This document shows, piece after piece, positions 13,674 to 33,929 of a DNA stretch of 59,233 nt. The notes beneath the pieces are model-generated. The model ran no database searches. It saw only the letters and a list, made by a program, of their open reading frames with translations, and was not told the DNA's origin. Numbering within the stretch: the stretch's first letter is position 1; every line of letters begins with the position of its first letter. This stretch comes from an uncultured Lachnospiraceae bacterium. GTDB taxonomy: Bacteria > Bacillota > Clostridia > Lachnospirales > Lachnospiraceae. Where the stretch lies: positions 1-59,233 of the forward strand of contig CATOJE010000001.1 of the NCBI GenBank assembly GCA_951800145.1, read 5' to 3'. Made by a program: the position numbers and the translations under genes.

Positions 13674-14378
13674 CTAAACTCCCTTTTCAAGCCTTTCTGA
13701 TATCAGCTTCAGCTCCTCCACTGTGTCCAGCTCTATAATCTGCCCCTTCTCAATCGGATGGACCGTCAGCTTCCATTCACCGATATGCCGGTCTACCACC
13801 TCATCCCAAAATAAGGCTTCATACCCCGGTAGTCCATATTCCAATTCAATGGCAGCATGAAGAATCCTTGCATCTTGAGCCGTAAAGTACGCGATCCCAG
13901 TCATGTTATAGCAGCTGTCCCCCGCTTTCCCCACCCGGGTTATAATGCCATGTTCATCCAGATCAAATACCCAGTCATCGGAATGGCCGGGCACCAATTT
14001 TCCGTAATAACAGGATCCGGGAAGTTCTGCCAGAAAAACAGATGGATCCGCTACAAATAAATCTGCCTCGCAGATAAAGCAGCTTCCTTTCAGCAGCATA
14101 TGGCGCGCTGCATAGACGGAGGATATGTTATTTACCGATTCATAAACCGGATTTTTCACAATGGACAGGTTTTCATACTTGTCCATCAAATATTGGAATT
14201 TCTCTCCTAAATAGCCTGCCACAACCGCTATTTCATTCACGCCTCTCCGTTCCAGGCCATCGATCAGGGTTTCGATCATTGGCCTGCCCCCCACTGGAAT
14301 CAGCGGCTTCGGTGTGGTTTTGGTCAGCGGCCCCATCCTTGTCCCCATTCCGGACGCCATTAAAATCGCATTTTCCAT
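13674..14378 (-). CDS. LicC/PntC-like cytidylyltransferase, probably AEP-activating
   Basis: A 234-residue nucleotidyltransferase. The N-terminus MENAILMASGMGTRM with TPKPLIPVGGRPM is the nucleotide-binding loop, and NNISSVYAA is shared by CTP:phosphocholine cytidylyltransferases and the related PntC enzymes that make CMP-2-aminoethylphosphonate. The Asp in CEADLFV is the metal position. Start ATG at 14378 with AAAGGAG upstream. Between ppd and pepM, with a LicD-type transferase in the same operon, the likely product is CMP-AEP; phosphocholine is the alternative but no choline kinase or transporter is present. Confidence 0.82.
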   Translation of the reverse strand: MENAILMASGMGTRMGPLTKTTPKPLIPVGGRPMIETLIDGLERRGVNEIAVVAGYLGEKFQYLMDKYENLSIVKNPVYESVNNISSVYAARHMLLKGSCFICEADLFVADPSVFLAELPGSCYYGKLVPGHSDDWVFDLDEHGIITRVGKAGDSCYNMTGIAYFTAQDARILHAAIELEYGLPGYEALFWDEVVDRHIGEWKLTVHPIEKGQIIELDTVEELKLISERLEKGV

Positions 14379-14389
14379 GTCCGCTCCTT

Positions 14390-15685
14390 TTACAGTGTGT
14401 CAATCAGGGAAATAATATCTTTAATCGGAAGCAGCCGGTCATCCACCTCTTTTGCCCTGTGATACCGGAGGATATCCTTTGCGGTCTCCTCCATTGCCGG
14501 GAATGCGCTTCGGGTAAGCTGGTTTGCATAAATGACGATGTTTACGCCATAGTTCTGAAGCTCTTCTTCTGTAACCGTATTAAAGGAAGAAGGTACTGCC
14601 ACAAGGGGGGTTTTATTATCTTCCGCCCGGAACCTCCCGCAAAATTCAATGATTTCTGCCGGATCCTTTTTCCGGCTGTGGATCATGATCCCATCCGCCC
14701 CTGCTTGTACGAAAGCTGCAGCCCTCTTTAAGGCATCTTCCATCCCCCGCTCTAATATCAGGCTTTCTATACGGGCAATGATCATAAAATCATCTGTAAG
14801 CTGCACGCTCTTGCCAGCTCTTATTTTTTCACTGAAGTGCTCGATACTGTCCTGGGTCTGCTTTACCTCTGTACCAAAAAGAGAATTCTTTTTTAGCCCG
14901 GTTTTATCTTCGATAATAACCGCAGAGACCCCCATACGCTCCAGAGAGCGGACCGTGTATACAAAATGCTCTGTCAATCCCCCAGTATCGCCATCAAAAA
15001 TAACCGGCTTCGTCGTTACCTCCATAACATCATCTATGGTGCGGAAACGGGAGGTCATATCCACCAGCTCGATATCCGGCTTTCCCTTTGCAGTTGAATC
15101 ACAGAGAGAGGAAATCCACATGGCGTCAAACTGATCCAGCCTTCCTTCATGATCCACTACGGTTTTCTCTGCGATCAGCCCGGTGATTCCGCTATGTACC
15201 TCGATCGCCTTCACAATGGGGCGGATCCTTAACAGCTGCCGCAGCCGCTTTCTCCGGAACTCCGGCATCATTAGCTTCTCCCGTATTTTAGCGTCGATAT
15301 GCTTTACCTTCTCATTATAGGTATAGGGGACATCGATGATCTGGCCCCCGTAGGGAGTAATAAGCCTTTCCACATTGTCCCGGATTGCCTTCGTTGGGCC
15401 TTGGAGCCAGTTATCGCCATGGATTACATAATCTGGATGGAGCAGTTCCACAACCTCATCGTACATCAGGGACTCCTGCTTTATTACCCGATCAACCCCC
15501 GGAACTGATTTTACCAGCTCCATCCGCTCTTCAAAGGAAATGGTAGGAAAGCGGTCGAACTTTACCATAGCGGCATCCGATAATACGCCGATGACAACTG
15601 TGCCATATTTTTTCGCTTCCCTTATTATATTTAAATGCCCCTCGTGGATCACATCCGTCGTAAAGCAGGAATAGACTATTTTCAT
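14390..15685 (-). CDS. pepM: phosphoenolpyruvate mutase fused to an N-terminal HxGH nucleotidyltransferase domain
   Basis: A 431-residue two-domain protein. Residues 1-130 are a TagD-like cytidylyltransferase fold with the HxGH motif (HEGH, 14-17). Residues 150-431 are the PEP mutase/isocitrate lyase-like barrel with DGDTGG (231-236) and the hallmark EDK followed by NS (259-261, 267-268), which separate PEP mutases from other lyases. The mutase forms the C-P bond, converting PEP to phosphonopyruvate. The ATG at 15685 is chosen because GGAGG lies eight bases before it. Mutases with this front domain occur in glycan loci; what the front domain activates is unclear, since a separate cytidylyltransferase gene follows. 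Confidence 0.94.
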   Translation of the reverse strand: MKIVYSCFTTDVIHEGHLNIIREAKKYGTVVIGVLSDAAMVKFDRFPTISFEERMELVKSVPGVDRVIKQESLMYDEVVELLHPDYVIHGDNWLQGPTKAIRDNVERLITPYGGQIIDVPYTYNEKVKHIDAKIREKLMMPEFRRKRLRQLLRIRPIVKAIEVHSGITGLIAEKTVVDHEGRLDQFDAMWISSLCDSTAKGKPDIELVDMTSRFRTIDDVMEVTTKPVIFDGDTGGLTEHFVYTVRSLERMGVSAVIIEDKTGLKKNSLFGTEVKQTQDSIEHFSEKIRAGKSVQLTDDFMIIARIESLILERGMEDALKRAAAFVQAGADGIMIHSRKKDPAEIIEFCGRFRAEDNKTPLVAVPSSFNTVTEEELQNYGVNIVIYANQLTRSAFPAMEETAKDILRYHRAKEVDDRLLPIKDIISLIDTL

Positions 15686-15701
15686 GAAAGTTACCTCCAC
15701 C

Positions 15702-16829
15702 TTATTGATATACCACCGGAATCTGAATCTGGTTTAATTCCAAAGCTTCCCTGAACACCACAAAAAAATCTTGAATATCCTTTTCATCAATCGCACCAAG
15801 GGCGCAGAGCCGGAAGGTATTTGCGCCAGATATTTTCCCGGGATAAATGGTAAAGCCCCGCTCATAGCAATAATCATGGATTTTCTCGAAATCCCAATTC
15901 GGATCGTCAGGATAGCGAGCGGAAACCACCAGGCCGCTCTGCCATTCCCGCCTTACGGCATCTTTAAATCCGAGCTTGTCCAGGCCATCATGGAGTGCGT
16001 GGAATATACGGGTATGCCTCGCCCACTTCGCCGCCTCCCCCTCCGCCCAGTATTCCTTTAGCGCCTGGAGCAATGCGTAAATGGTCTGTACTGGCGGGGT
16101 AAAATGCATTTCACCGGTCTTCTCAAAAAACTCATATTGAAGGTAAAGATTGCAGTAATAAGAACGCTTGGGATAATCCTTAGATGCTTCAATTAGTTCC
16201 CGCTTTCCTATAATGAAGGAAAGGCCAGTCATAGCCATCAGCCCTTTTTGAGCAGAAGCCATGCAGAAATCGATCTGATCCTTTTCAATATCGATGGGGC
16301 GCATAGCCAGTGTAGAAGTGGTATCTACCGTAAAAATAGCACCATACTGGTGTGCCAGGGAGCCGATCTCCCGGATCGGGTTCAGAATGCCCGTTCCTGT
16401 TTCATTATGCGTCGTATGAACCAAACCGATATCCGGATTGCTTTTCAGCGTTTCCTCCACCTTCGAAAGATCCGGGAGCTGATCCACAGGAAATCTCAAA
16501 TCAATATAGGGCAGGCCATAATACTGGCAGATCTCCACTGCTCTCGTACTGTATGCCCCATTGTTGACTACTAAAGCCTTTTTTCCCTCTGCCAGCAAAG
16601 AGTTTATACATACATCAATATTTAACGTTCCGGATCCGCAGAACAGCACACTGGTGTATTTATCTAAATCACCATGAACGATTTTCACCAGATCCTCCCG
16701 CAGACCTTTCATTAAATTTGCAAATTCCTTTTCACGGGGGCAGATATCTGGTACAACCTGAGCCATTTTTACTGTATCTGTTGTCGTGGATGGACCGGGG
16801 TTTAGTAGGATATTTCGTTTTATATTCAT
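15702..16829 (-). CDS. phnW: 2-aminoethylphosphonate--pyruvate transaminase
   Basis: PLP-dependent class V aminotransferase of 375 residues. The N-terminus RNILLNPGPSTTT is typical of the PhnW/AEPT family; GSGTLNIDV binds the phosphate of PLP and SAQKGLM carries the Schiff-base Lys (K195). With PEP mutase and phosphonopyruvate decarboxylase next to it, it most likely works in the biosynthetic direction and aminates phosphonoacetaldehyde to 2-aminoethylphosphonate. AAGGAG nine bases before the ATG supports the start. No phosphonate degradation genes (phnX, C-P lyase) are present. Confidence 0.93.
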   Translation of the reverse strand: MNIKRNILLNPGPSTTTDTVKMAQVVPDICPREKEFANLMKGLREDLVKIVHGDLDKYTSVLFCGSGTLNIDVCINSLLAEGKKALVVNNGAYSTRAVEICQYYGLPYIDLRFPVDQLPDLSKVEETLKSNPDIGLVHTTHNETGTGILNPIREIGSLAHQYGAIFTVDTTSTLAMRPIDIEKDQIDFCMASAQKGLMAMTGLSFIIGKRELIEASKDYPKRSYYCNLYLQYEFFEKTGEMHFTPPVQTIYALLQALKEYWAEGEAAKWARHTRIFHALHDGLDKLGFKDAVRREWQSGLVVSARYPDDPNWDFEKIHDYCYERGFTIYPGKISGANTFRLCALGAIDEKDIQDFFVVFREALELNQIQIPVVYQ

Positions 16830-16850: not shown

Positions 16851-17678
16851 TCAATAGTGGTAAAAATTATGCCCCGGAACTCGATCGGCTTCCGGTGGTA
16901 AAGACATATAATCCCCAAACATAATTGTTAAATACCTCTGATAATCACTAATTGCTGAAAATAATCTGCCCTCAAACCAGATTTCCGAATATGATTCGAA
17001 TAAATAATATGGATATAAATCATCAGACGTAAGTTTATGGGGAGGCTTAACAGAATCTGCATATGTTATTTGAGAAGCTGAATAATTATATTTTGTTCTT
17101 ATACGATTCTCCCATTGATTTATCTTTTTTACACCAACTTTTTTGACAATAAATGACATACATCTGTGCAAAAGGGCGGTAACATAATTTTCATTTTCAC
17201 GCACCAGCAAAGAGTACTTTAACATCGAGCAAAAGCTCATACAAATTAAGCTCTGAATTCTTTTCAAACAACTTTCAGCAACTTTATCAATTGGGAATAT
17301 ATCAATACAAATACCCTTTTTTATATCAAGGCTCTCCGTCTCAGCAATATGTGCTGGAATATTCAAGTTAATAATTTTTGCAAAGCTATTCAAATACTGT
17401 GCGTCTGTCAAAAAAGTTTGCAAAAAATATGTCTCGTCAAATTCTTCTTTAAATATGTCACAAAATCTATCGAACTCTTTTCGCGGCATTAATACATCTA
17501 TATCATCGTCCCATGGAATAAATCCTCTATGTCGGACTGCCCCCAGTAATGTTCCGGCTGCTAAAGAATATTTTAGATTATGCTTTTTGCATACTTTGTC
17601 AAACCTAATTAATATGTCTAGCTCTTCCTTTTTCACATACTCTAAATCATAATATATTCTTTCTCTGCTCTTCTCCAT
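16851..17678 (-). CDS. licD: LicD family phosphotransferase
   Basis: A 275-residue LicD-family protein with the family core GTLLGAVRHRGFIPWDDDID (residues about 42-61), whose Asp residues bind the metal. LicD proteins transfer phosphocholine, ribitol phosphate or related groups from CDP/CMP carriers to glycans. In this operon the expected donor is CMP-AEP, so it probably places 2-aminoethylphosphonate on the surface polysaccharide. It sits just before the phnW-pepM run in transcription order but is AT-rich like the flippase gene, so it may belong to the older glycan block. Start ATG 17678 with GGAG eight bases upstream. Confidence 0.88.
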   Translation of the reverse strand: MEKSRERIYYDLEYVKKEELDILIRFDKVCKKHNLKYSLAAGTLLGAVRHRGFIPWDDDIDVLMPRKEFDRFCDIFKEEFDETYFLQTFLTDAQYLNSFAKIINLNIPAHIAETESLDIKKGICIDIFPIDKVAESCLKRIQSLICMSFCSMLKYSLLVRENENYVTALLHRCMSFIVKKVGVKKINQWENRIRTKYNYSASQITYADSVKPPHKLTSDDLYPYYLFESYSEIWFEGRLFSAISDYQRYLTIMFGDYMSLPPEADRVPGHNFYHY

Positions 17679-17679
17679 C

Positions 17680-19101
17680 TTATTTACTCCACTTTCTTTT
17701 TTTATGCAAAAAAAGTTTACTCCACAAAACTACTGTTTTTATTTCCCCCCTATATAAGAAAACGATAACCATAAACAAAAATATTTGATTGAAATTAAAC
17801 ACATATTCATCATGCTTTACAAGTATGACTGCCTGGACAAAGAGTATAGCTACTGATAAAACCATTCGTGTCATGTCAAAGGACATCCCTATAGCTTTTT
17901 GTGCATCCTTTGCGCGAATAAGAAAAACAATAACATACCCTAAGGTTGTGCCGATAGCAATGCCATATAATCCATATAATTTTATCAATATTAAATTTAA
18001 TATTAAATTTGTAATTGCACCAATGAATGTAGTAATAAATGATTTATGAGATTCTACCTTAACCAAATATATAACTCCAGCAAAGGTAGAAAAACAGCTA
18101 AATAATGTTGCTATACTTAAAAAAGGAACATATTTCCATGCTTCAACAAAAGAATCTTCAATCATTAAAATAAATATGGGTTTAACAAACACAATTATGC
18201 AAGATGTACATAGCACTAATAATGCAGATGTCCATTTAAATATGTATGTATAGAATGTTTTACCACTTTTTTGCTCTTCTAATGCAGATAGCTGCCACGC
18301 CTGCATAAAAATAGAATATATTAAATTCAATATTGTAGGTAATTTCATGGAAAGTGAATAAATACCATTCGCTGAACTTCCCATAAAATAATTAATCATA
18401 TACTTATCTCCGGCATTCATCAGCCACCACATTAAATTATTAGGTATTAGCGGTATACTATATAGCAGCATTCTTTTTAGAAAGTTAATGTTTATACTTC
18501 TAAATGAACAATGATGTAAAACATCTCCAGCAATCGTACATTGAATCCCGGCTAACAATTGGGCCAATATTAAAGAATACAGGTATCCATATACCCCGCA
18601 TCGAAATATTAGTAAAAAGATTACATTTGAAAAAACCGTAACAACTGTAATAATCATTCCATTCAGACTGAATGAAATACTTTTTCCTCTTGCCCGCAAA
18701 TATTGTCCAAATATCTGATTATATGAATTAAAGATAAGACAAACAATAAAATACAAAACAAATTCTGATTTATTAAATAAATATTTATAAACAGGTATGC
18801 CGAGAAAAGTAATACACGTCCCCCACATAAAAATAAGCATACTAATAGAAATTGCTTCATCCTTATCAATTTCATATGTTGGCAAAAAGCGTATTATTGA
18901 TTCATAAATAACTAAGGTAGTAAAAGGAAGCATTAAACTTATTGCAGTGGAAAACAAGTCTATATTTCCATAGTCTTCCGTTGACAAATAGTATGTATAT
19001 ATAGGTACAATTAGAAATGTCAGTATTTTGCTTCCAAATGTTCCAACTGCGAAGATCGCTGTATTTTTTGCTAAGTATTTATATTTACTGGTGTTATCCA
19101 T
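17680..19101 (-). CDS. Wzx-type flippase (oligosaccharide exporter)
   Basis: A polytopic MATE/MVF-superfamily protein of 473 residues with about 12-14 hydrophobic helices. The start NTAIFAVGTFGSKILTFLIV and the later LPTILNLIYSIF are typical of Wzx/RfbX flippases that move lipid-linked repeat units across the membrane. The ATG at 19101 is preferred on homology. An in-frame TTG at 19128 would overlap the preceding gene by 20 bases. Neither has a good ribosome binding site, so the start is uncertain. Works with the Wzy-like polymerase encoded at 21926-23233. Confidence 0.87.
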   Translation of the reverse strand: MDNTSKYKYLAKNTAIFAVGTFGSKILTFLIVPIYTYYLSTEDYGNIDLFSTAISLMLPFTTLVIYESIIRFLPTYEIDKDEAISISMLIFMWGTCITFLGIPVYKYLFNKSEFVLYFIVCLIFNSYNQIFGQYLRARGKSISFSLNGMIITVVTVFSNVIFLLIFRCGVYGYLYSLILAQLLAGIQCTIAGDVLHHCSFRSININFLKRMLLYSIPLIPNNLMWWLMNAGDKYMINYFMGSSANGIYSLSMKLPTILNLIYSIFMQAWQLSALEEQKSGKTFYTYIFKWTSALLVLCTSCIIVFVKPIFILMIEDSFVEAWKYVPFLSIATLFSCFSTFAGVIYLVKVESHKSFITTFIGAITNLILNLILIKLYGLYGIAIGTTLGYVIVFLIRAKDAQKAIGMSFDMTRMVLSVAILFVQAVILVKHDEYVFNFNQIFLFMVIVFLYRGEIKTVVLWSKLFLHKKRKWSK

Positions 19102-19108
19102 ATATATT

Positions 19109-20212
19109 CTAAGCCAATACCCTATCAATCAACGTTAAGTGTCCCATGGCTTCCTCCATTTTTTTGTAATTCATATCCGGAGTTTTATTTAAAAGTTCTA
19201 TAGCAGCCTCTATACTTATATTATCTCCTTCCTTTATGTTCCACCTGTATCCTACATAATCAAAATCCTCTAGCATATCCGAGATTTTATTACTATATAT
19301 AACCGGAATAAAGGGAATTCTTAGTGCTATAGCAAGAATGTTTGCATGAAATCGTGTACATACCATCGCTGATATGTCTGAAAAAAATCGTATTGAATCT
19401 TCTACATTAGTATGATTAAATATCTCAATCTCATGTTGTAAAAAGCCACCCTTATCTATAATTAGTTTACAAGCATCTAAATCTCCCTCATTCTCGCAAA
19501 AAGAGAGTAAAACTATTGCATATTTTTCATATTTTTTTCTTATAGCCTTGATTAAACTAACTATCCCGGTTATGTATTTATCTTTGTTATCTCTAATACC
19601 TTTATTATTTAAACTAATCACAGATATTCCAACTCTTTTTCTACAGCTTTTTATATGTGTAAAGGGTATATTAAATACAATATCAGGATAGCATTTCACA
19701 TTATTCAAGCACGAAAACATTTTATAAGATGTCAGATCCCTAAATATAACTATATCATAGTTTTTAAAAAGTTCTTGATGCTTAGCATGAAATTCTGTAG
19801 TAAAAAAGGGGCCAAAATTGCTATTAACAATCATATTATAATCACAATGATTCACTATATATTCAGCATCTCTGATCTTATTAATCCAAGATTTAGGAGT
19901 AACTTGCATAAAGATCGATCCGCCCAGTTCCAAATTAACATCATATTTTTTGCTTTTAAATTCCTTTATAATCTGGATTTTAGGCACATTAAAATAGGAT
20001 ATAAATTTATTAAACATTCTCCTAAGCACATCATTTTTATAAGGTGTAATAGATTTTATAATATGAAGATTTGAACACTTACATGCAACATCATATAAAT
20101 TATTTGTATTGCTCACAAAAAAATCATGATTCGGGTATCTTTCACATATTAGTTTAATCATTAAGTCGTCGCCTAAATTATTATTTAAATACGAGGATAA
20201 ATAAATTTTCAT
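19109..20212 (-). CDS. polysaccharide pyruvyl transferase family protein
   Basis: A 367-residue CsaB/WcaK-like protein. The N-terminus YLNNNLGDDLM and the C-terminal CTRFHANILAIA are the two family signatures; the Arg-His of the latter belongs to the active site. Members add ketal-linked pyruvate to sugars, though many homologues act as phosphate or glycosyl transferases. If active, it would give the glycan a second acidic substituent beside the AEP group. Start ATG at 20212 with only a weak AGAGTG upstream. Confidence 0.83.
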   Translation of the reverse strand: MKIYLSSYLNNNLGDDLMIKLICERYPNHDFFVSNTNNLYDVACKCSNLHIIKSITPYKNDVLRRMFNKFISYFNVPKIQIIKEFKSKKYDVNLELGGSIFMQVTPKSWINKIRDAEYIVNHCDYNMIVNSNFGPFFTTEFHAKHQELFKNYDIVIFRDLTSYKMFSCLNNVKCYPDIVFNIPFTHIKSCRKRVGISVISLNNKGIRDNKDKYITGIVSLIKAIRKKYEKYAIVLLSFCENEGDLDACKLIIDKGGFLQHEIEIFNHTNVEDSIRFFSDISAMVCTRFHANILAIALRIPFIPVIYSNKISDMLEDFDYVGYRWNIKEGDNISIEAAIELLNKTPDMNYKKMEEAMGHLTLIDRVLA

Positions 20213-23240: not shown

Positions 23241-25532
23241 CTACCGAAACTCTTTCTTAATAATTTTAATTATTTCTTCTGAAATGCTATCAGCATCATA
23301 CTTTTTTGCAAACTTAACACACTTATCTTTTAATTGATCTTTTTCCTTTACACTTCTACATATTCCATCAATAAAAGCAGCTTTATTTAGTTCCTTTACT
23401 AAAATCCCAGTCTCGCCAGGAATAACTAAGTTACGAACTCCAATGACATCAAACCCTACAACCGGAAGGCCTGCTGCAAGAGCCTCTAATACTGAAAGAG
23501 AAACTCCCTCTCCTTTCGATGGAAATAAAAAAACATCACTCTTACTCAATTCTTTTACTATTTCTACATGATCCTTTCTGCCTAATAATTTTATAAATTG
23601 CTCTGCTCTTGCTTTATTTATTTTACTCAGAATATTTTTATAATCTGGTCCATCTCCTATTATCACAAGAATACTATTAGGATTCATTTTATAATAGTCT
23701 ATAAATGAATCAACTAATAAATCCACATTCTTCCATGCATCTATTCTTCCTGTATAAATAAATCTTAATTCCTTTTCTTTCTGTTTCTTACATGCAGCAA
23801 TTCCTTTATAATCGATAGGGCTTCCTATGGAATAAAAAACTTTTTTGTTAAATATTTTTTTATTTTTGTGCAATTCTAATTCTTCTTCACTAGACACAAA
23901 AAAAGTTACGTTTGCTAAAAGTTGTGCAAAAGTATATCCGATATTTAAGATTCGTATAAATCCGCTATTTTTTTTGTAAGACAACCCATGTTGATGATGA
24001 ACGACAAATTTTTGAGGGTAACATATTTTTATAGCTATCGTTGTTGCAGATGTATGAGAGTAAATAATATCATATTGTTTAAACTGTTTTCGATGCTTTA
24101 AAATGCCGAAAAAGCTTCTTATAAAATTAGGTATAATTTTATTATTAGCTTTAATATTCGTATATATAAATATCCTTTTTCCTAAAACACTAAAGGGGGC
24201 ATTATCTCCTTCGACCTTCCCTCCCCATATATCTACTGACCAATTTTTTTCTTTGACAAATGAAGGTAATAAATTCTTTACATAGTTTAGCATCCCTCCC
24301 ATAGGCCAATTTTTATAATTCGATAAATAGATGTCTTCTATTATGATTCCGCTTCCTTCCCTTAAAATATCTTTCGCTCCTACTGTATCGCTTATAATAA
24401 CAGGGACTCCATGACAAATTGCTTCAAGCACTGTAAAACCAAATGTTTCATACCATACACTTGGAACAATCAGCACATCTGTGTTTAAAAAAATATTCTT
24501 CAGCTCATTATAACTATATCTATCGTGAATATTCATATAAGGTTTCTTTTCATTTAAATTAAAATGTATATCCAAGCAAAAATTTTGCTTCTCTAACCAA
24601 AGCTTATCCAATGCTGACACCAATAAATAAAATCCCTTACCTCCACTTTGTGACCCCATATATCTAATTTTTATTTTCTTATCAGAAAATGTTTTTTTAA
24701 TTCTATTATCTACTATATTCAAATGACTAATATTAATAACAGTGCAAGTGTGCTTACCAAAATATTGCTCATATATCATTTGTGTTACAGAACTATTAAA
24801 ATGAATAATATCCATCATTTTTAAAAGTGAAAAATAATAGCTGCGTAACTTCTTATATTCCAAACTTGTATTCCTTGATTTACCATTTCTCTGTATACCC
24901 GCCAGATATTGCTTTCTATGCTCTTGCCGGATTTTTTTTATGATTGCAATATCTTTTAATTTTCGGTATATGGGCGTCTGCAATATTTTAATTTTTTTCA
25001 TAGATAATGCTGTGCTGTTACATTGGCTGCAATTTTCGCAGGATATAACAGATGAACAAATCTCTCCTTGAGAAAACATCGTCACCTTAGGACAAATTGG
25101 AAAAAAATCATGTGCTGAAAATACAATCCGTATATTCCTATCCTTTGCAATGGATAAAAAACTTTTATGTATTCCCATTAGAGTATGCATATGGATGACA
25201 TCTGGTTTGAAATCATCAAACAGTTTTCTGTAAACTTTCGTATCAACATTTTTCATAAACAATTCAAATTTATTAATTCCCTCGTCAAAAGGAATTGGTA
25301 ATGGATTAACTATTTCATAGCTTTGGATAAATATTTCATTACAGCTACTTTTTATTAATCCACAATCTAAAATTGATACATGCTGATTAATTAGTCTCAT
25401 TCTGCCTGGCCACAGTAATGCCACCTGATGTCCCTTTTTGCTCTGCTGTATCATTAAATCGATATTAAATTTTGTCATTCCACCACTTCTATACGGAGGA
25501 AATCCTAATGCATAGTGTAATATTCTCATCAT
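23241..25532 (-). CDS. fused tandem GT4 glycosyltransferases
   Basis: A 763-residue protein with two GT-B units. Residues 1-397 are a GT4 with LHYALGFPPYRSGGM, a cysteine-rich loop (146-171, five Cys) and the E-x7-E region YETFGFTVLEA, but the terminal helices that normally follow GSGIII are missing. Residues 398-763 are a second, full-length GT4 starting IYLSNYKNWPMGGML, with GRIDAWKN and GEGVSLSVLEALAAGLP. The switch is abrupt, at about base 24335, with no stop or frameshift. Such a join suggests an in-frame deletion that merged two adjacent genes, or a stable bifunctional enzyme. Each unit would add one sugar to the repeat unit. Confidence 0.85.
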   Translation of the reverse strand: MMRILHYALGFPPYRSGGMTKFNIDLMIQQSKKGHQVALLWPGRMRLINQHVSILDCGLIKSSCNEIFIQSYEIVNPLPIPFDEGINKFELFMKNVDTKVYRKLFDDFKPDVIHMHTLMGIHKSFLSIAKDRNIRIVFSAHDFFPICPKVTMFSQGEICSSVISCENCSQCNSTALSMKKIKILQTPIYRKLKDIAIIKKIRQEHRKQYLAGIQRNGKSRNTSLEYKKLRSYYFSLLKMMDIIHFNSSVTQMIYEQYFGKHTCTVINISHLNIVDNRIKKTFSDKKIKIRYMGSQSGGKGFYLLVSALDKLWLEKQNFCLDIHFNLNEKKPYMNIHDRYSYNELKNIFLNTDVLIVPSVWYETFGFTVLEAICHGVPVIISDTVGAKDILREGSGIIIEDIYLSNYKNWPMGGMLNYVKNLLPSFVKEKNWSVDIWGGKVEGDNAPFSVLGKRIFIYTNIKANNKIIPNFIRSFFGILKHRKQFKQYDIIYSHTSATTIAIKICYPQKFVVHHQHGLSYKKNSGFIRILNIGYTFAQLLANVTFFVSSEEELELHKNKKIFNKKVFYSIGSPIDYKGIAACKKQKEKELRFIYTGRIDAWKNVDLLVDSFIDYYKMNPNSILVIIGDGPDYKNILSKINKARAEQFIKLLGRKDHVEIVKELSKSDVFLFPSKGEGVSLSVLEALAAGLPVVGFDVIGVRNLVIPGETGILVKELNKAAFIDGICRSVKEKDQLKDKCVKFAKKYDADSISEEIIKIIKKEFR

Positions 25533-25569: not shown

Positions 25570-26736
25570 CTATAATATATTTTTTAAAAATAGCATTTTG
25601 TATTCCATTGCTATCTTTTCCCATATGTAATGTTCTTTAATACGTTTTTTGGCTTGTATTTCAAGTTTTTTTCTTTCTTCTAACGTTATAGATTCTGCTT
25701 TATTTATTAATGAAGTCAAACTTCCCTTTTCTTTATTCCAATATAATGCACTGTCTTTTGCCACCTCCCGGTTAAACCCCACATCTAATAATAAGCTCAG
25801 TTTTGTACTTCCCAGTGCTTCTAGCAATGAAGGATTCGTTCCTCCAACAGAATGTCCATGCAAATATCCATATGCATTTTCCCGAATTTTTTTCAATAAT
25901 TCCTGGTCATAAACGGTTCCTACAAATTTAATTCTTTTATTCTCTCTAAAATGTAATCTTCTCTCTAGCTGCTGCAAAAATTTTTCGTCCGCTGTTGTAA
26001 TAATGGCAAGATCTCTCTCTGACTTTGAATTCATAAATTCCTGAATCATAATTTCAAAATTATTTTCTGGAACAAATCTGCCTACAATCAGATAATATCC
26101 GTCCGCCTTTAATCCATTCTCATTCATCCATCCTACATACGCTTCATCATCATCCTTCAATTTGGATGGCTTTACTTCAGCTCCGTAGGCAATAAAGGTT
26201 GTTTTTGGTTTGTACTCCTGATACTCCTTTTGAATATATCTTTCAATATTTCTACTATCACAAATAAGTAGATCTGCATGTTTTACCATCATACCTTCAG
26301 ATTTTTTCCAATACCAGCGCACCGGCTTTGACCATTTTGCTCTCATCCATTCATGTCCATCTGGATTAACATACAGTTCCCCGTTCAAGCGATGAATTCT
26401 CCTCTGAAAATATGCAGCAAACGGTCCAATCCTGCAAGCCAATACATAAATGATCGACTTTTGTATTTGCTTTTCTTCAATATATTCGCAGCACTGTTTC
26501 AATGCCAAAGCGTCATAATAAATTGCCTGTGCTGATCCTATATTTGGAACCTTCAGTTGAAAGCATCTGGCATTGTTGTATTCGAATTCCCTTTTCTCTT
26601 TGCCTTTGCATGCGATATGATACTGGATATTCGAATTATCTTGGTGGTATTCTGTCAATTTATCCACAAATGTTTCATATCCTCCGTATCGCCCCGGAAT
26701 CCCTTTTGAACCAATGATAAAAACATGCCGCTTCAT
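25570..26736 (-). CDS. DUF1972 glycosyltransferase (rhamnosyltransferase-like)
   Basis: A 388-residue GT4-type enzyme with the DUF1972 N-terminus VFIIGSKGIPGRYGGYETFV, typical of Cps2T/RgpA-like beta-1,4-L-rhamnosyltransferases that act on the first sugar of Gram-positive polysaccharides. YVNPDGHEW follows, and GHSVGGTNPSLLEALGS is the donor-binding loop. As the first glycosyltransferase of the operon it probably adds the second sugar. No priming sugar-phosphate transferase of the WbaP/WecA type is seen in the window, so priming must be encoded elsewhere. Confidence 0.85.
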   Translation of the reverse strand: MKRHVFIIGSKGIPGRYGGYETFVDKLTEYHQDNSNIQYHIACKGKEKREFEYNNARCFQLKVPNIGSAQAIYYDALALKQCCEYIEEKQIQKSIIYVLACRIGPFAAYFQRRIHRLNGELYVNPDGHEWMRAKWSKPVRWYWKKSEGMMVKHADLLICDSRNIERYIQKEYQEYKPKTTFIAYGAEVKPSKLKDDDEAYVGWMNENGLKADGYYLIVGRFVPENNFEIMIQEFMNSKSERDLAIITTADEKFLQQLERRLHFRENKRIKFVGTVYDQELLKKIRENAYGYLHGHSVGGTNPSLLEALGSTKLSLLLDVGFNREVAKDSALYWNKEKGSLTSLINKAESITLEERKKLEIQAKKRIKEHYIWEKIAMEYKMLFLKNIL

Positions 26737-27668: not shown

Positions 27669-27767
27669 CCGTTATCACCTCTCATTCATCTCTCAATATT
27701 TATAATTATTTGAATTTATTTAAATGCATCATTTAAAGGGCTTATCTACATCAGGCCTTTAAGTCTG

Positions 27768-27832: not shown

Positions 27833-28063
27833 TTTCCTCTCCAGAAGCATTGACTGAAGCAGTGACGCAGCTGGTAGCAATGGTGGCAAAAAACAGATCT
27901 GCAATATATTCCACTTTTATTCGTTATTTGAAGTTATTTGATTTTTGTAAGCTGCCTCAAATCCCCCTCCTTTCGCTGCCGCTCTGTGCTATGCTTGCTG
28001 CGGCTTTCCACACTGTCACTGCAGTTCCGCGTGAAAAAGCCTACAAGCCCAGGGCCCGGAAAA

Positions 28064-28168
28064 CCTTCATAAAAGCCCGCGAGCCGGAGCCCAGGAAGCC
28101 TTCATAAAAGCCCACGAGCCGGAGCCCAGGAAGCCTTCATAAAAGCCCACAAGCCGGAGCCAGGAAAG
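28064..28168. repeat. 35-bp tandem repeat
   Basis: Three 35-bp units (28064-28098, 28099-28133, 28134-28168), each starting CCTTCATAAA and containing GAGCCGGAGCC or AAGCCGGAGCC, with partial copies on both sides (about 28033-28063 and 28169-28190). Units differ by only a few bases. They lie between the invertible element and the operon, so a leftward transcript would carry them in its leader. No spacers are present, so this is not a CRISPR array. Confidence 0.88.
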
Positions 28169-28216
28169 CCTTCATAAAGACCTGGAATCCGCTGTCCTCT
28201 AAGGACTCACAGCCAG

Positions 28217-28371
28217 TGTTTCAAAAAGTATAGGTTTTGAGACTGACACCGCATTGGTAAAAATGAACAAGAAAAATCCAGATTTTGTGATTGACAATTC
28301 AAGAATTTTATAGTATTGTTGTTAAAGTTGATGAAAGAAAAACTGTCTCAAAACCTATACCTTTTGAGACA
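28217..28371. promoter_or_regulatory. predicted invertible promoter element (inverton)
   Basis: Two 27-bp inverted repeats (28217-28243 and 28345-28371) match at 25 of 27 positions and enclose 101 bp. Each repeat is itself built like a tyrosine-recombinase core site. In the right copy TGTCTCAAAA and TTTTGAGACA are perfect inverted arms around the 8-bp centre GGTATAGG (read on the minus strand). The left copy is TGTTTCAAAA, AGTATAGG, TTTTGAGACT. The inner GTATAGG is identical and asymmetric, so the two sites are in inverted orientation and recombination would invert the segment. A promoter lies inside it. In this orientation it points right, away from the polysaccharide operon. The structure is read directly; inversion itself is inferred. 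Confidence 0.75.
28291..28319 (+). promoter_or_regulatory. promoter inside the invertible segment
   Basis: TTGACA at 28291-28296, a perfect -35, is followed after 17 bases by TATTGT at 28314-28319 (four of six matches to the -10). The expected start is near 28326. In the present orientation transcription runs into the hairpin at 28338-28377 after about 12 bases. If the segment were inverted, the start would map near 28262 and read left toward the recombinase-like gene. Confidence 0.65.
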
Positions 28372-28378
28372 GTTTTTT
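28338..28378 (+). terminator. terminator formed by the right recombination site
   Basis: AAAAACTGTCTCAAAA (28338-28353) and TTTTGAGACAGTTTTT (28362-28377) form a perfect 16-bp stem around an 8-base loop, followed by a T-rich run. The loop plus left arm is the right inverted repeat. Six of the 16 base pairs use bases 28338-28343, which lie inside the invertible segment, so inversion would shorten the stem. Confidence 0.8.
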
Positions 28379-28625
28379 CTTTCTTGTATTCTTTCTTTTA
28401 TTTTCTTTTTTCCCATGATACTCAGCATAATACTCAAGTTAATCAGAAACCTTTCTAAAACCCTGCTGCAGGCAGCTGCCATCCATTTCTCAGCGCTGCA
28501 GGGCAGTGTTATCTGAAGCATTCACACAAAGGCAGCCCCGCTATCATACACAATGGCTATGAGCAGGCAGAAGGATATACTATTTTCATATTCTGTTACT
28601 TTTTGTATATCTTGTATAATTTTTA

Positions 28626-28654
28626 TTGTAAATATTCCTATCGCTTTGTATAAT
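28626..28654 (+). promoter_or_regulatory. sigma-A-type promoter for the two-component genes
   Basis: TTGTAA (28626-28631), a 17-base spacer and a perfect TATAAT (28649-28654) lie 36 bases before the sensor kinase start. This gives the kinase its own promoter downstream of the terminator in the invertible element. The stretch 28372-28625 is T-rich at first and otherwise holds nothing I can assign. Confidence 0.75.
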
Positions 28655-28690
28655 AGCTTTAAGAATGATAAAAAGGTGTGTCTATTGAAT

Positions 28691-30538
28691 ATGAGTCGAA
28701 TCCCTATAACCTTCCGCAAGCGCATGATCTTATATAATCTTCTGATGATTATCTGCATTGCCTGCATGATCAGCGTTTATACCTACTCTTTCTATCGAAA
28801 GGATGCTATTACCAGCGAGACGGCCAGCTCGGTGAACCGGCTCCATCTGCTTTCCTCCAGGCTTGAGGTCGCCTGCGATGAGCTGATTAATATTGTCCAG
28901 AACTGTGCCGGGAGAAAGTCTCTGTTCCGCACCTCTATCCTCTCCAGGCACGATCGGTTTTCCGATGAGGAGTCCGGGCTTTATGCGGCAGGGGTGTTGA
29001 AGGATCTCTGCGCCATCTCCGGGTACAGCGAATATATCCATAAAATCACGGTGTATGAGAAGGATTCTCTTTTTATCCAGGCAGGCACCTCCCACGGCAG
29101 CTGGAATGACGCGGGCTCGATTATGGACGCGCCCTGGTTTGATGAGCTGTTGAATAAAAACATACGGGAGAATACCCTGACTCTAAGGGATAATCCTTTC
29201 CCTTTGGATGCAAAAACCGTCCCCTATATCCTTCCTCTCATCCGCCCCCTTCAGTATTCTAAGAAGGAGTCGTCCCGGGATGCATGGGTCTGCCTTACCC
29301 TGTCGCCAAAGCTGTTCCAGCATACCCTGGCCCTTTTGCCTCAGGATAAATCCCTGCTGATTTTGACCAGTGATTTTGATCCTGTCAGCAGTATGAATAT
29401 GGACTCCTTCCCTGTGGCAGAGCTGGAAGGGGTTCTCCGGGCCCATCCGGCTCAGACTGGCAGCCTGCAGGTGAAGCTGTCCGGCAAGGGCTGCATCCTG
29501 ACCTGGGAACGCCTCCCCATCAGCGGCTTGATCCTATGCGAGGTTCTGCCCTTAAAGAGTATTTCGCCCAATCTCAATGCCATCCGCGCTACGGTGGGGC
29601 TGGTTTTTTTCTCCTGCATTGCCATCGGGTTTTCTCTGTCCCTTTTATTCACCCGTTATCTGACGCGGCCGATTATGCGTCTGATCGCACACATGGATGT
29701 GATTTCTTCTGGAAACTTTGACCGGAATCCGGATATTGAATCTGATGATGAGCTGGGGCTTATCGGACAGCGGATCAATGAAATGTCCGCCCATGTTTCG
29801 AATCTGATGGAAAGCCGCATTCACGATGAGCAGGAAAAGCTGAATTTAGAGATCAAGATGCTCCAGGCCCAGATTAATCCTCATTTTCTCTATAATACGC
29901 TGGATTCCATCAAATGGATTGCGACTATGCAGCAAAGCGCGGGGATTGTCCGGGTGGTCTCAGCCCTCTCCTCCCTGCTGAAAAATATGGCTAAGGGATT
30001 TAATGAAAAGGTTACCATCCGTCAGGAGCTGGATTTTCTTGATCATTATGTGACCATTGAAAAGATCCGCTATATTGAGCTGTTTGATGTTGAAATCACT
30101 GTAGACGATCCGGCCTTGTACCAGGCGGGCATCATCAAGCTTACCCTGCAGCCCCTGGTGGAGAACAGCATTTTCTCCGGTATTGAGCCCAGCGGGAAGC
30201 CGGGGCTGATCCAGATCCACGTTTATTCTGAGGAGGAGGTTTTGTATATCTCCATCCGGGATAATGGGGTGGGCATTTCCCAGGAAGGGATCGCCCGGAT
30301 GCTGACAGATACCTCCCGGGTATCGAAGCACTATATGAGCGGTATCGGCCTCCCCAATGTTGACCGGAGGATCAAGCTGGTATACGGGCAGCAGTATGGC
30401 CTTACCATGGACAGCGTGGTGGGCGTCTATACCTGCGTCACCGTGTCTCTTCCCTTAGAGTTCTTGTCTGGCGCTGAGGGGCAAAAAGATGTGCTGACTG
30501 AGCAGGAGCAGCCGTCTGGGCGAACCTATCCCGGCTGA
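28691..30538 (+). CDS. YesM-like sensor histidine kinase
   Basis: A 615-residue membrane sensor kinase. A first membrane helix (about 12-32), a Cache-like outside domain (35-295), a second helix (about 300-322), HAMP (325-375), the phospho-acceptor region LQAQINPHFLYNTLDS (His near 398) and a C-terminal HATPase with LVENSIFSG (N-box) and IRDNGVG (G-box). This is the His_kinase/LytS-YesM type that usually senses extracellular oligosaccharides or binding-protein complexes. ATG 28691 is used; a TTG six bases earlier has better spacing to AAGGTG. Paired with the AraC-type regulator that follows; it probably controls the sulfated-glycan genes. Confidence 0.92.
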   Translation: MSRIPITFRKRMILYNLLMIICIACMISVYTYSFYRKDAITSETASSVNRLHLLSSRLEVACDELINIVQNCAGRKSLFRTSILSRHDRFSDEESGLYAAGVLKDLCAISGYSEYIHKITVYEKDSLFIQAGTSHGSWNDAGSIMDAPWFDELLNKNIRENTLTLRDNPFPLDAKTVPYILPLIRPLQYSKKESSRDAWVCLTLSPKLFQHTLALLPQDKSLLILTSDFDPVSSMNMDSFPVAELEGVLRAHPAQTGSLQVKLSGKGCILTWERLPISGLILCEVLPLKSISPNLNAIRATVGLVFFSCIAIGFSLSLLFTRYLTRPIMRLIAHMDVISSGNFDRNPDIESDDELGLIGQRINEMSAHVSNLMESRIHDEQEKLNLEIKMLQAQINPHFLYNTLDSIKWIATMQQSAGIVRVVSALSSLLKNMAKGFNEKVTIRQELDFLDHYVTIEKIRYIELFDVEITVDDPALYQAGIIKLTLQPLVENSIFSGIEPSGKPGLIQIHVYSEEEVLYISIRDNGVGISQEGIARMLTDTSRVSKHYMSGIGLPNVDRRIKLVYGQQYGLTMDSVVGVYTCVTVSLPLEFLSGAEGQKDVLTEQEQPSGRTYPG

Positions 30539-30679
30539 GCTGCCATTTCAGGCAGAACAAACATGCCCCGGCTTCGCTGCCACTTCAGGCAGAACGAACA
30601 CGCCCCGGCTTCCCAGCTACTGCGGGCAGGCTGGAAGATGCCCAGCCGGATATCTACGAATTTGGAAAAGGAGCTTTTT

Positions 30680-32296
30680 ATGTACCGAATCATTCTGATT
30701 GACGATGAACCATTGATCCTGGCAGGCATCGCATCCCTGATCTGCTGGGAGGATCATGACTGCTGCATTGTGGGGAAGGCCACGAACGGCCATACGGCCC
30801 TGGAGCTGATCCTGGACACCCGGCCGGATATCGTGATCACGGATATCCGGATGCCGGTGATGAACGGCCTGGAGCTAATCCAGGCCTGCAAGGAGCGGAG
30901 CGGTGACTTTGCCTTCATCTTCCTGACGAATCTGGAGGATTTCCAGCTGGCGAAGGAGGCGGTGCATCTGGGCGCCACCGACTATCTGGTAAAGCTGGAT
31001 CTCCAGCCCCAGACGCTGATCCAGGCCCTGGAGCGGGCCAAGGAGCACTGCTCCCGCATGGAAAGCCATCACAATAAGGAGCTGTACACCCTTCTATTAA
31101 AGGACAGCAAAAAGCAGCTGGAGCAGAATTATTTTTCCCAGCTGCTTCTGCACCCCTGGGATGCGCCCTTTCCCTTTCAGCCGGAAATCGACAATGCCTA
31201 CCCAAAGGCTTACCTGATTCTGTGTCAGATGAAGCCGGAGCAGATCCGTTTCGGCCAGACAGAGTCTTATGACTTTCAGTTTATTTCCAGTCAGCTGCTG
31301 GATGTTGTTTCCGGAATCGGGGCGCGGTATTTCTCCAGCCACACCATACTGATGCCCCAAAAGGATACCATGCTCCTGGTAGTCTCCCCCAAGGAGGAGC
31401 ATGACCGAGAAGGCTCTCTCTCCGAATTCTGCACCAAGGTGAATGTGGCGCTTGGCACCTATTTTGCCCTGACCGCCCTCTTCGGCGTCAGTCAAAGGAA
31501 GATGGAGGTTTCCCAGTTTCCTGAGGGGCTGACAGAGGCCCGGTCTGCCCTGGGCCGCTGCTACTATGCTTCTGCTCTTGGCATTGTTTTTTACCAGGAT
31601 CAGAAGTCGCGTCTGCGTCCCCCCGTCCAGCGGGAGTTTAATATTAATTTCCTGAAGAAGTCCATGTCCATGGCTGTGCTGGAAAATGAAAGTCAGGATT
31701 TAATGGAAATCTTCCACCAGCTTTCCGATCTGTTTACCCAGTATAAGCCGGATAAAACCCAGGCAGTCAGCGCCTGCATTAATATTTACTCCTATCTCCA
31801 CGACCTGCTGCAGAATGAGGGTTCCCAGGACAATGAATTCCCCTATAGCATGGATATCGCCAAGCAGCTCTCCAGCCTTGGGAGCCTGGATGATATTCTG
31901 CTGTGGCTGGACAGCTTCTGTGAGAAAATATGCGCCATGCTCACAGAGCGGAAGGAAAAGCGTTCGGACAAATTCGTCTATATGGCAAAGCGCTACATCC
32001 ATGAGCATTACCGGGAGAAATTAACCTTGTCTGAAATTGCAGAGCACTTAAAGATCAGTCCCGGTTATCTCAGCTCTACCTTCAGCCGCTATATGAACCG
32101 AACAGTCTCCGACTACATTGCCGAGGTAAAGATCGAGCACGCCAAGGAGCTGATCGATTCCGGCCAATACCTGATCTACGAGATCGCGGACCAGCTGGGC
32201 TTTGAAAATGCCTATTATTTCAGCAAGGTGTTTAAAAAGGTCACTGGCATGGCTCCAAAGAATTATGAGTGCTGGCATAAATTAAATAAGAATTAA
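30680..32296 (+). CDS. YesN-like response regulator with AraC DNA-binding domain
   Basis: A 538-residue regulator. The receiver domain (1-125) has the acidic pocket IDDEP and phospho-acceptor D55 in ITDIRMP. A long middle region (about 130-430) of the kind seen in YesN proteins is followed by an AraC-type double helix-turn-helix (440-538): LTLSEIAEHLKISPGYLSS and IYEIADQLGFENAYYFSKVF. AAGGAG eight bases before the ATG at 30680 fixes the start; upstream in-frame sequence is not family-like. Partner of the sensor kinase; likely activates the sulfatase, ABC transporter and GH88 genes. Confidence 0.93.
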   Translation: MYRIILIDDEPLILAGIASLICWEDHDCCIVGKATNGHTALELILDTRPDIVITDIRMPVMNGLELIQACKERSGDFAFIFLTNLEDFQLAKEAVHLGATDYLVKLDLQPQTLIQALERAKEHCSRMESHHNKELYTLLLKDSKKQLEQNYFSQLLLHPWDAPFPFQPEIDNAYPKAYLILCQMKPEQIRFGQTESYDFQFISSQLLDVVSGIGARYFSSHTILMPQKDTMLLVVSPKEEHDREGSLSEFCTKVNVALGTYFALTALFGVSQRKMEVSQFPEGLTEARSALGRCYYASALGIVFYQDQKSRLRPPVQREFNINFLKKSMSMAVLENESQDLMEIFHQLSDLFTQYKPDKTQAVSACINIYSYLHDLLQNEGSQDNEFPYSMDIAKQLSSLGSLDDILLWLDSFCEKICAMLTERKEKRSDKFVYMAKRYIHEHYREKLTLSEIAEHLKISPGYLSSTFSRYMNRTVSDYIAEVKIEHAKELIDSGQYLIYEIADQLGFENAYYFSKVFKKVTGMAPKNYECWHKLNKN

Positions 32297-32385
32297 ATTA
32301 AAATGGTGCAAGTTAAATAAAAGTTAAAATTAAAAGAATTAAACTAAATGAGAATCAAACTAAATAAGAATTAAAATCAGGAAAG
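32281..32385. repeat. AT-rich low-complexity spacer
   Basis: Between the response regulator and the first sulfatase the sequence is made of degenerate AATTAAACTAAATAAG-like units of about 16 bases. No promoter stands out. AGGAAAGGA before the sulfatase ATG is the only clear signal. Confidence 0.5.
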
Positions 32386-32396
32386 GAATCTCCGAT

Positions 32397-33929
32397 ATGA
32401 GCAAAAAAGTAATTCTAATTATGACCGATACCACCCGCACCGATATGCTGAGCTGCTACGGCAATCCTGCCATGGACACCCCAAACCTGGACCGGCTGGC
32501 CGCCGGCGGCATCCGTTTCGACCAGGCCTATACCACCCAGCCAGTATGCCAGCCTGCCCGCTCAGCTATTTTCACTGGAAGCTATCCCCACTCCTGTGCC
32601 GGCTGGTCCAACTGCATGGGCCTGTCTGATAATGTACAGAATATCGGGCGTCGCTTACAGGATCAGGGCGTCCACAGCGCTTATATTGGAAAATGGCATC
32701 TGGACGGAGGGGATTATTTCGGCCTTGGCCGCTGCCCAGAGGGCTGGGATCCGGATTACTGGTATGATATGCGGAATTATCTGGAGGAGCTTTCACCAGA
32801 GGAGCGGTATATCTCCCGTCAGGCCCACACCATGGAAACCCAGGATATCCCGGCGGAATTTACCTATGGCCACCGCTGCTCGGACCGGGCCATTGATTTT
32901 CTTCAAAAGCATCAGGACTGTGAGCAGGATTATTTCCTGGTGGTTTCCTACGACGAGCCTCATGACCCCTGCCTCTGCCCAAGGGAATTCTGGTCTAAAT
33001 ATGAGCAGGTGGAATTTCATCGGAAGAAAAATCTCCTGGACACTCTGGAGGGCAAGCCGGAGCACCACCGGATCTGGGCGGGCAAGGACTACTTAAAGGC
33101 CGCCTCCCCCGATTTCTCCATGAATTTTAAATATTTTCTCGGCTGCAACAGCTTCGTGGACTATGAGATCGGGCGGGTGCTCCAGGCAGTGGAGGATTAT
33201 GCAGAGGATGGTGTTGTGATTTACACCTCGGACCACGGAGATATGCTCTACTCCCATTCCCTGACCCAAAAGGGGCCTGCCATGTATGAAGAGATCACCC
33301 ATATCCCTCTGATTATCCGGGGCTTCGGCAAGGGCCAGGCGAATCCTAATCCGGTTTCCCATATAAATCTGGCCCCTACCATCTTTGATATCTTTAACCT
33401 CCCTGTGCCAAAGGTGTTCGAGGGAAAAAGCATCTATGAAGAATTAAAAACCGGGCGCAGGACCAATGAGTATGTGTTTATGGAATTCGGGCGGTACGAG
33501 GTAGACCACGACGGCTTCGGAGGCTACCAGCCTATCCGCTGCGCCTTTGACGGGCGGCATAAGCTGGTTATCAATCTTATGACCTCCGACGAATTTTATG
33601 ACCTGAAGGAAGATCCGGAGGAGATGGATAACCGGATCCTGGATCCTGCATTAGACAGGGAAAAGCGCCGTCTCCACAAGGCCCTGCTAGATAACATGTA
33701 TCAGACCCGGGATCCCTTCCGCGGGTACTACTGGGAAAACCGCCCCTGGAACAGCTATCCCGAGGATCGAACCTGGGACAGCCGCCGGATGACCCGCCAG
33801 CGGGAAAATGAAGACTATGAGCCCCGCCAGCTGGACTACTCAACCGGGCTTCCCATGGAGGCGGCGGTTCGGAAAAAGGGAGAATGCACCTCCCAGGCGG
33901 ACAGCACCCATGGAGAAGAGCAGATTTAG
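32397..33929 (+). CDS. sulfatase (S1 family type)
   Basis: A 510-residue formylglycine-dependent sulfatase. The metal site starts with LIMTDTTRTD, the modification motif is C51 in VCQPARSAIFTG (C-x-P-x-R) and the second metal motif is YTSDHGDM. GKWHLDGGD is the conserved Lys/His segment. There is no signal peptide, so it works in the cytoplasm on imported oligosaccharides. The Cys-type motif needs an anaerobic sulfatase-maturing enzyme, and one is encoded at 42249-43364. The C-terminal 60 residues are rich in Arg/Glu and probably disordered. Exact sulfate position (N, 2-O, 6-O) is not readable. Confidence 0.92.
   Translation: MSKKVILIMTDTTRTDMLSCYGNPAMDTPNLDRLAAGGIRFDQAYTTQPVCQPARSAIFTGSYPHSCAGWSNCMGLSDNVQNIGRRLQDQGVHSAYIGKWHLDGGDYFGLGRCPEGWDPDYWYDMRNYLEELSPEERYISRQAHTMETQDIPAEFTYGHRCSDRAIDFLQKHQDCEQDYFLVVSYDEPHDPCLCPREFWSKYEQVEFHRKKNLLDTLEGKPEHHRIWAGKDYLKAASPDFSMNFKYFLGCNSFVDYEIGRVLQAVEDYAEDGVVIYTSDHGDMLYSHSLTQKGPAMYEEITHIPLIIRGFGKGQANPNPVSHINLAPTIFDIFNLPVPKVFEGKSIYEELKTGRRTNEYVFMEFGRYEVDHDGFGGYQPIRCAFDGRHKLVINLMTSDEFYDLKEDPEEMDNRILDPALDREKRRLHKALLDNMYQTRDPFRGYYWENRPWNSYPEDRTWDSRRMTRQRENEDYEPRQLDYSTGLPMEAAVRKKGECTSQADSTHGEEQI

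Follow-up and report, generated by a model that had tools for sequence, protein, structure and literature searches.

Invertible capsule promoters of Bacteroides (Mpi and others) occur several to a genome before polysaccharide operons with regulatory first genes, and those first genes encode the NusG-like UpxY and UpxZ, not dead recombinases. Dead relatives of TnpB, termed TldR, reportedly regulate surface structures. For cwpV of Clostridioides difficile, the passages on the switch describe a predicted intrinsic terminator that is completed at the repeat junction in the OFF orientation (Emerson et al., 2009; PMC2784873). A Clostridia inverton group (group 139), whose flipping was measured by reads, is tied by proximity to tyrosine recombinase group 35 in the sections that treat these groups (PMC11892184). 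The parts of the literature that concern regulators present MrpR, the master repressor of SPbeta, as a tyrosine-recombinase fold that has lost recombinase function and is now a DNA-binding regulator (PMC10516654), and TldR proteins as nuclease-dead TnpB regulators (PMC13418256). Among open-licence papers, we found none that describes switches of this kind in Lachnospiraceae, invertons at AEP-glycan loci, or a part for dead recombinases in phase variation.

Here, we analyzed a stretch of 59,233 nucleotides (the window) that opens contig C1 of an uncultured Lachnospiraceae bacterium (G000 in locus labels; 148 contigs, 86% complete). An earlier note had read positions 28217–28371 as a candidate invertible promoter at the head of an AEP-glycan operon. 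The operon label is sound as annotation: a PEP mutase, a TPP enzyme, a class V aminotransferase, an NTP transferase, a LicD protein and a flippase are among the predicted products (Table 1). The repeats were also as the note had described them. They are complementary at 25 of 27 positions (93%) around 101 bp; the right repeat consists of arms TGTCTCAAAA and TTTTGAGACA, perfect over 10 bp, around the asymmetric centre CCTATACC, and the left repeat is built likewise, 8 of its 10 arm positions pairing around the centre AGTATAGG.

Table 1. Features of the glycan locus in window coordinates, with related segments elsewhere given by locus label (strand: +, − or none, shown as a dot).
Feature	Position	Strand	Remarks
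TPP enzyme, candidate phosphonopyruvate decarboxylase	12519–13640	−	
NTP transferase, candidate CTP:phosphonate cytidylyltransferase	13674–14378	−	
PEP mutase with N-terminal cytidylyltransferase-like domain	14390–15700	−	
Class V aminotransferase, candidate 2-aminoethylphosphonate transaminase	15702–16829	−	
LicD-family phosphotransferase	16851–17678	−	
Polysaccharide flippase (Polysacc_synt)	17680–19128	−	
Pyruvyl transferase		−	operon member
Glycosyltransferase group 1 / family 4	23241–25532	−	
Glycosyltransferase with DUF1972 domain	25570–26736	−	
XerD-like tyrosine-recombinase homologue without catalytic residues	26766–27668	−	first gene of the operon
Leader box 2, TAAATTCAAATAAT	27705–27718	−	near ribosome-binding site
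Leader box 1, TAACTTCAAATAAC	27923–27936	−	conserved; lies between the inverton and the first gene
Operon-side inverted repeat / crossover site	28217–28243	.	core TTTCAAAA-AGTATAGG-TTTTGAGA at 28219–28242
Invertible interior, 101 bp	28244–28344	.	ATTGAC..TTTTATAGTAATGTTGTTAAAGTTGATGAAA kept in related loci
Sigma-70-type promoter motif, TTGACA-N17-TATTGT	28291–28319	+	10 of 12 consensus matches; conserved in relatives
Intrinsic-terminator-like hairpin	28337–28378	+	17 pairs, 8-nt loop, T run; encloses distal crossover site
Distal inverted repeat / crossover site	28345–28371	.	core TCTCAAAA-CCTATACC-TTTTGAGA at 28346–28369
Histidine kinase gene	28553–30538	+	downstream of promoter in OFF orientation
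A-type segments with own full-length recombinase, own genome	L157:8825–10311 (C42); L158:8560–10051 (C23)		
A-type segments with resident recombinase upstream of dead homologues	L038, L040–L042, L046, L047, L049, L101, L104, L112, L114, L115		

Within the 59-kb window, this was the sole inverted pair with an extension score of at least 17 at a separation of 40–700 bp, and its score of 21 was equalled in none of 100 first-order Markov resamplings (maximum 15). A search of the same genome with the site pattern, allowing up to three mismatches, returned both window sites and two sites on contig C47 (12807–12832 and 12934–12959) only, against zero control matches. The C47 sites belong to a second segment of the same (B) type, G000:C47:12806–12964, which lies before an operon for a GlfT2-like glycosyltransferase and an ABC exporter. 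This segment is without a recombinase homologue, the centre of its right site is palindromic (CTATAG), and its promoter, read by eye, is also directed away from the operon. Contig C34 begins within a distal crossover site (G000:C34:1–70); its 70 bp are identical to 28351–28420 and lead into a diverged copy of the flank, and this sequence is a further copy or a strain variant of the segment. In the leader that separates the inverton from the first gene, a repeat with a 35-bp period also occurs in four tandem copies (28049–28213, 63–100% alike). No RNA family was found in the window at the Rfam gathering threshold.

The promoter element that the earlier note had placed between the repeats was recovered at its position, and it scored best among seven promoter-like sites in a 911-bp stretch (shuffle mean 1.7). 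By its consensus matches and its conservation in relatives, it is a predicted promoter that would face the regulated genes in one of the two orientations only. As that note had proposed, the element is aimed away from the glycan operon, hence the deposited state would be OFF. As sequenced, it is directly followed on the 3' side by an intrinsic-terminator-like hairpin, half of which lies within the invertible segment. The RNA fold of the 70 nt past the –10 box was –24.7 kcal/mol as sequenced versus –5.5 kcal/mol after an in-silico flip; on sequence and RNA folding, the repeat junction is predicted to form the terminator in OFF and to lose it in ON. The earlier note had omitted both this hairpin and the tyrosine-recombinase homologue that separates the segment from the glycan genes.

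Related loci share this asymmetry between the two flanks. Of 13 distal sites, 11 have at least four consecutive T on their outer side, versus 2 of 12 operon-side sites (Fisher p 0.0012); among the 8 loci for which both sides could be assigned, the counts are 6 versus 1 (p 0.041), both p values serving as indications because the loci are related; the exceptions are L027 and L028. Five of the 13 distal flanks (G004:C46, C67 and C166; G010:C81 and C77) are contig ends that were called distal for their absent recombinase homologue. We think that the distal-site hairpin probably functions as a terminator. In the OFF state, such a terminator would shield the neighboring histidine kinase gene from the promoter. 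The far side of the inverton (28553–33929) encodes this histidine kinase together with a sulfatase and an AraC-type response regulator, in an orientation divergent from that of the glycan operon.

A single orientation in all relatives, which the earlier note had named as evidence against a switch, was not what we found. Among 12 homologous segments before operons, which come from several genomes and are separate loci, as opposed to one locus in several strains, the promoter is directed toward the operon in 5 (G008:C18, L027, L028, G004:C139, and G008:C1, the last without a recombinase homologue) and away from it in 7 (the window, G010:C114, G004:C131, G008:C4, G004:C157, G004:C128, and G004:C159, the last judged from the segment end alone). 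This comparison supports the inverton reading. Seven of the 12 are whole within one contig, with the recombinase homologue, both sites and the flanks: the first four of the away group, and G008:C18, L027 and L028 of the toward group. Aligned on the promoter, the interiors have the stretch given in Table 1 in common. A search of 11 genomes of the genus with the window-segment DNA gave matches in four, the own genome counted. More broadly, of 40 recombinase-homologue loci (L050 counted among them, and five with less than 1 kb of upstream sequence), 21 had a repeat pair scoring at least 17 on their upstream side, against 0 to 0.05 pairs per locus in shuffled sequence. We had considered contig ends within invertons as evidence of mixed orientation and discarded this argument, because several G004 loci have identical interiors and repeats alone explain the breaks; most of the compared genomes are fragmented assemblies. 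At one locus (L031 / L130, G008:C18), two promoter segments stand back to back in an almost perfect inverted duplication of 489 bp that precedes a glycan operon.

We then turned to the first gene of the operon. In its product, ArgI is replaced by Glu, HisII by Lys and ArgII by Lys, and the C-terminal segment with His and Tyr is absent. The protein matches PF00589 at 3.6e-12, with a match that ends at position 134 of 172, and its profile alignments with XerA and XerD stop at the LRH motif. A structure model (mean pLDDT 85, pTM 0.55) matched XerA, XerD, XerH, lambda Int and Cre; whole-chain TM-scores were low, about 0.4, and the XerD C-terminal domain fitted better (TM 0.53 on target). The loss of catalytic residues is a family trait. 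Across 39 homologues, ArgI is E in 37 (Q and D once each), ArgII is K in all 39, and the C-terminal His/Tyr are absent from all 39; L050, a gene split into two fragments, and L065, with 27% identity, were left out of this set. The genes that follow the dead homologue are co-directional in 38 of the 38 loci with downstream sequence, and among the 112 proteins of the next three genes, glycosyltransferases are the commonest in Pfam (PF00534 27, PF00535 10), followed by other sugar enzymes.

Site type tracks the protein tree, in that the 11 B-type proteins form one clade and the 16 A-type proteins (see below) need two changes; linked inheritance could also yield this agreement. The remaining dead homologues have no recognized site type (11 of 39) or a third type (1). 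First-gene relatives are encoded in Lachnospiraceae, Hungatella and Clostridiaceae records, many of them metagenome assemblies and several of them from mouse-gut catalogues, and G008 alone has 16 dead-recombinase loci, counted from the homologue list. In 397 family genomes searched at E ≤ 1e-40, a sample that evidently omitted other carriers of the same genus, the own genome had five copies, six genomes had one full-length relative each, and no others were found. The six full-length relatives keep the catalytic motifs and are matched by PF00589 to positions 169–171 of 172; they adjoin glycan-type genes in the four loci read further by eye, and within their loci of 3.4–3.8 kb we found no B-type sites, the repeat pairs scoring 16 at most. 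A different inverted repeat, TCGGGTTCACTGTGACTTTCACTCACAG, surrounds a dead-recombinase gene at L024 (8999–9026 and 10064–10091), and recurs by eye at the end of L160, on a short contig (C139) that also encodes two tyrosine recombinases side by side.

Upstream of the dead homologues, the leaders have their own conserved sequence. The motif TAACT[TA]CAAATAA[TC], allowing one mismatch, occurs on the coding strand of 20 of 39 leaders and on the opposite strand of none, a count that is descriptive because the motif was picked from the same leaders; 0.08 were expected by shuffling, and 1 of 781 control windows had it. All 11 B-type leaders contain this box, which is a candidate regulator site.

Since the adjacent recombinase homologue is without catalytic residues, it is not the flipping enzyme, and another enzyme must therefore flip the segment. 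Adjacency gave no candidate for B-type sites: the sole PF00589 match on C1 is the dead protein itself, and there is none on C47. Other recombinase-homologue loci have a second family of sites. These A-type sites (TTTCGCAGA-N9-TCTGCGAAA) form inverted pairs around 0.3 to 2.1 kb. All 17 pairs tested agree exactly in their central 5 bp when read as inverted repeats, and 13 different spacers occur among them; the same pairs read as direct repeats match at 14 of 85 positions. Random re-pairing gave a mean of 1.6 exact matches, and none of 100,000 permutations reached the observed total. This set leaves out L043, where 701 bp of upstream sequence were available and contain a single A-type site, and it does not cover the sites of this type in G008:C1 and G009:C16. 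Locus-matched spacers are what tyrosine-recombinase strand exchange requires, and they give most loci an address of their own.

Inside 14 of the 17 A-type segments resides a full-length tyrosine recombinase with catalytic motifs, the gene for which runs toward the operon in 12 and away from it in 2. The HisII/ArgII motifs of these residents were read separately, as their columns were misaligned in the 39-homologue alignment; L101, with one unknown base, was omitted there. Short gene-less A-type segments on C8 and C13 of the own genome could be served in trans. The residents use arms different from the B-type arms. B or B-like sites occur in G000, G004, G008, G009 and G010, and of the 11 genomes it is exactly these 5 that have a strong match (E ≤ 1e-95) to the A-type resident recombinase. 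This co-occurrence is a correlation only; in the other six genomes the sole search for B sites used the window DNA, which failed to pick up G009 as well. Genes for large serine recombinases (Resolvase and Recombinase domains) lie beside a B-type inverton (L132:4152–5876) and an A-type one (L042:4313–5905), and are perhaps mobile-element insertions. Because one of them adjoins the L132 locus, an enzyme class other than tyrosine recombinase is possible for B-type sites.

The position behind such sites is not always taken by a dead recombinase. The segments on C42 and C23 of G000 are followed by TnpB-family genes (L157:10429–11793 and L158:7019–8395), and with L209–L212, L214 and L215 there are eight such genes in 5 of 11 genomes of the genus. 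All eight have a crossover-type site or repeat pair upstream (A-type in four, B-type or B-like in four), with a single site only where the contig or the examined stretch ends. An acidic residue is kept in none of the eight at the three RuvC positions that we take to be canonical. Downstream genes were examined for C42 and C23, and a search for a guide RNA at these two loci gave chance-length matches only. By analogy, the TnpB relatives behind inverton sites are candidate TldR-like regulators.

We propose the following course of events at the window locus. A tyrosine recombinase encoded elsewhere in the genome would invert 28217–28371, with strand exchange inside the GTATAG spacer that the two palindromic sites contain. 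In the OFF state, the promoter would fire away from the operon and its transcript would end after about 50 nt at the terminator that the distal crossover site completes. In the ON state, the promoter would face the operon, the hairpin that it meets would be weak and lack a T run, and the transcript would pass the leader with its two conserved boxes and enter the operon. The first ON product would be the catalytically dead recombinase homologue, which may act as a DNA-binding regulator, made mainly in ON cells, whose targets would be crossover arms or leader boxes, either in its own switch or in sister switches. Judging from the sites and from the same layout found both ways round in relatives, the segment very likely inverts in this strain as a phase-variation switch. 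We hold with good confidence the account as a whole, that is, a flipping promoter, an orientation-dependent terminator and a dead-recombinase regulator. For a regulatory role of the first gene, taken singly, we lean toward yes, because the dead fold is conserved, its placement would have it made mainly in ON cells, the TnpB relatives offer a parallel and MrpR offers a precedent.

The orientation differences might stem from something other than inversion. The repeats could be non-recombining binding sites for the dead homologue, set beside a divergent promoter and a terminator, with orientations that came to differ by ordinary divergence; the adjacent homologue without catalytic residues and the failure to find a B-type enzyme by adjacency (PF00589 on C1 and C47) would suit this. 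We nevertheless find it improbable, since promoter-bearing interiors are conserved yet reversed between homologous loci, and since sister A-type sites hold recombinases with catalytic motifs and the locus-matched spacers that strand exchange requires. It is more improbable still that the OFF and ON calls are wrong joins of mixed repeats in fragmented assemblies. Contigs do often end within segments and several G004 interiors are identical, but seven loci, four away and three toward, have both sites and both flanks in one contig. Equally hard to credit, if not harder, is a MITE-like small transposable repeat with terminal inverted repeats that came to lie before operons by chance. Near copies do exist in the own genome (C1, C47 and the contig end on C34) and in relatives, and by eye the G010 copies on C81 and C77 lie beside genes unlike glycan genes; yet no target duplication was seen by eye at the ends, twelve copies precede operons, the distal and operon-side flanks differ systematically, and the crossover-like plan is common to a second, sequence-unrelated site family.

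A weightier alternative accepts the inverton and disputes the regulator: the dead homologue would be a passenger, or a structural subunit of an active recombinase tetramer. Tyrosine recombinases can function as mixed tetramers, and the coincidence of clade and site type fits a site-recognition subunit too. At eight other loci, however, a TnpB relative without nuclease residues, hardly a recombinase subunit, stands behind such a site, and MrpR shows that a recombinase fold can become a regulator; we regard the passenger or subunit role as unlikely, though far from negligible. Returning to the regulator reading, one can extend it into a tentative picture that we would sooner doubt than accept. 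Many glycan operons of this group would be flip-switches whose first product is a disarmed DNA-targeting enzyme of mobile elements, mostly a dead recombinase and elsewhere a dead TnpB. This ON-only product would bind crossover sites or leaders and lock its own switch or silence its sisters, giving one glycan per cell, with the crossover site doubling as half a terminator.

If the switch operates as proposed, it would extend phase-variable glycan control to Lachnospiraceae with a repeated architecture. We found no description among open-licence papers of two of its parts, namely a promoter inverton whose crossover site is half a terminator and a conserved dead-recombinase family that would be made mainly in ON cells. 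With dead relatives of TnpB also found behind these sites, the slot may favor DNA-targeting regulators, which bears on how cells might display one surface coat at a time. For inverton surveys, there is a warning that a recombinase gene beside an inverton is not necessarily its flipping enzyme.

Like the Bacteroides systems, the window has, as proposed here, a promoter-bearing inverton before a polysaccharide operon and a regulatory first gene; Bacteroides belongs to another phylum and uses another recombinase class. TldR proteins and the TnpB-like genes on C42 and C23, likened here by description, are both of a nuclease-dead type, and no guide RNA was found at the latter two. As portrayed in the parts of the paper that concern it, MrpR is a phage repressor that keeps Tyr and Lys, whereas the first-gene protein has Glu at ArgI and Lys at ArgII and lacks the C-terminal end; the likeness shown is one of fold (PMC10516654). 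The group 139 invertons resemble the window in being Clostridia invertons near a tyrosine-type recombinase; the sections on that group mention neither adjoining glycan operons nor missing catalytic residues (PMC11892184). The cwpV switch and the window both have imperfect inverted repeats around a short intergenic segment and a predicted OFF-state terminator, and the passages on cwpV mention no dead recombinase homologue, whereas the window has one (PMC2784873). As those passages present it, cwpV transcription is initiated outside the segment, and it is the terminator that is proposed to act as the switch; in the window, by contrast, the promoter lies inside the segment and the terminator would cap it in the OFF state.
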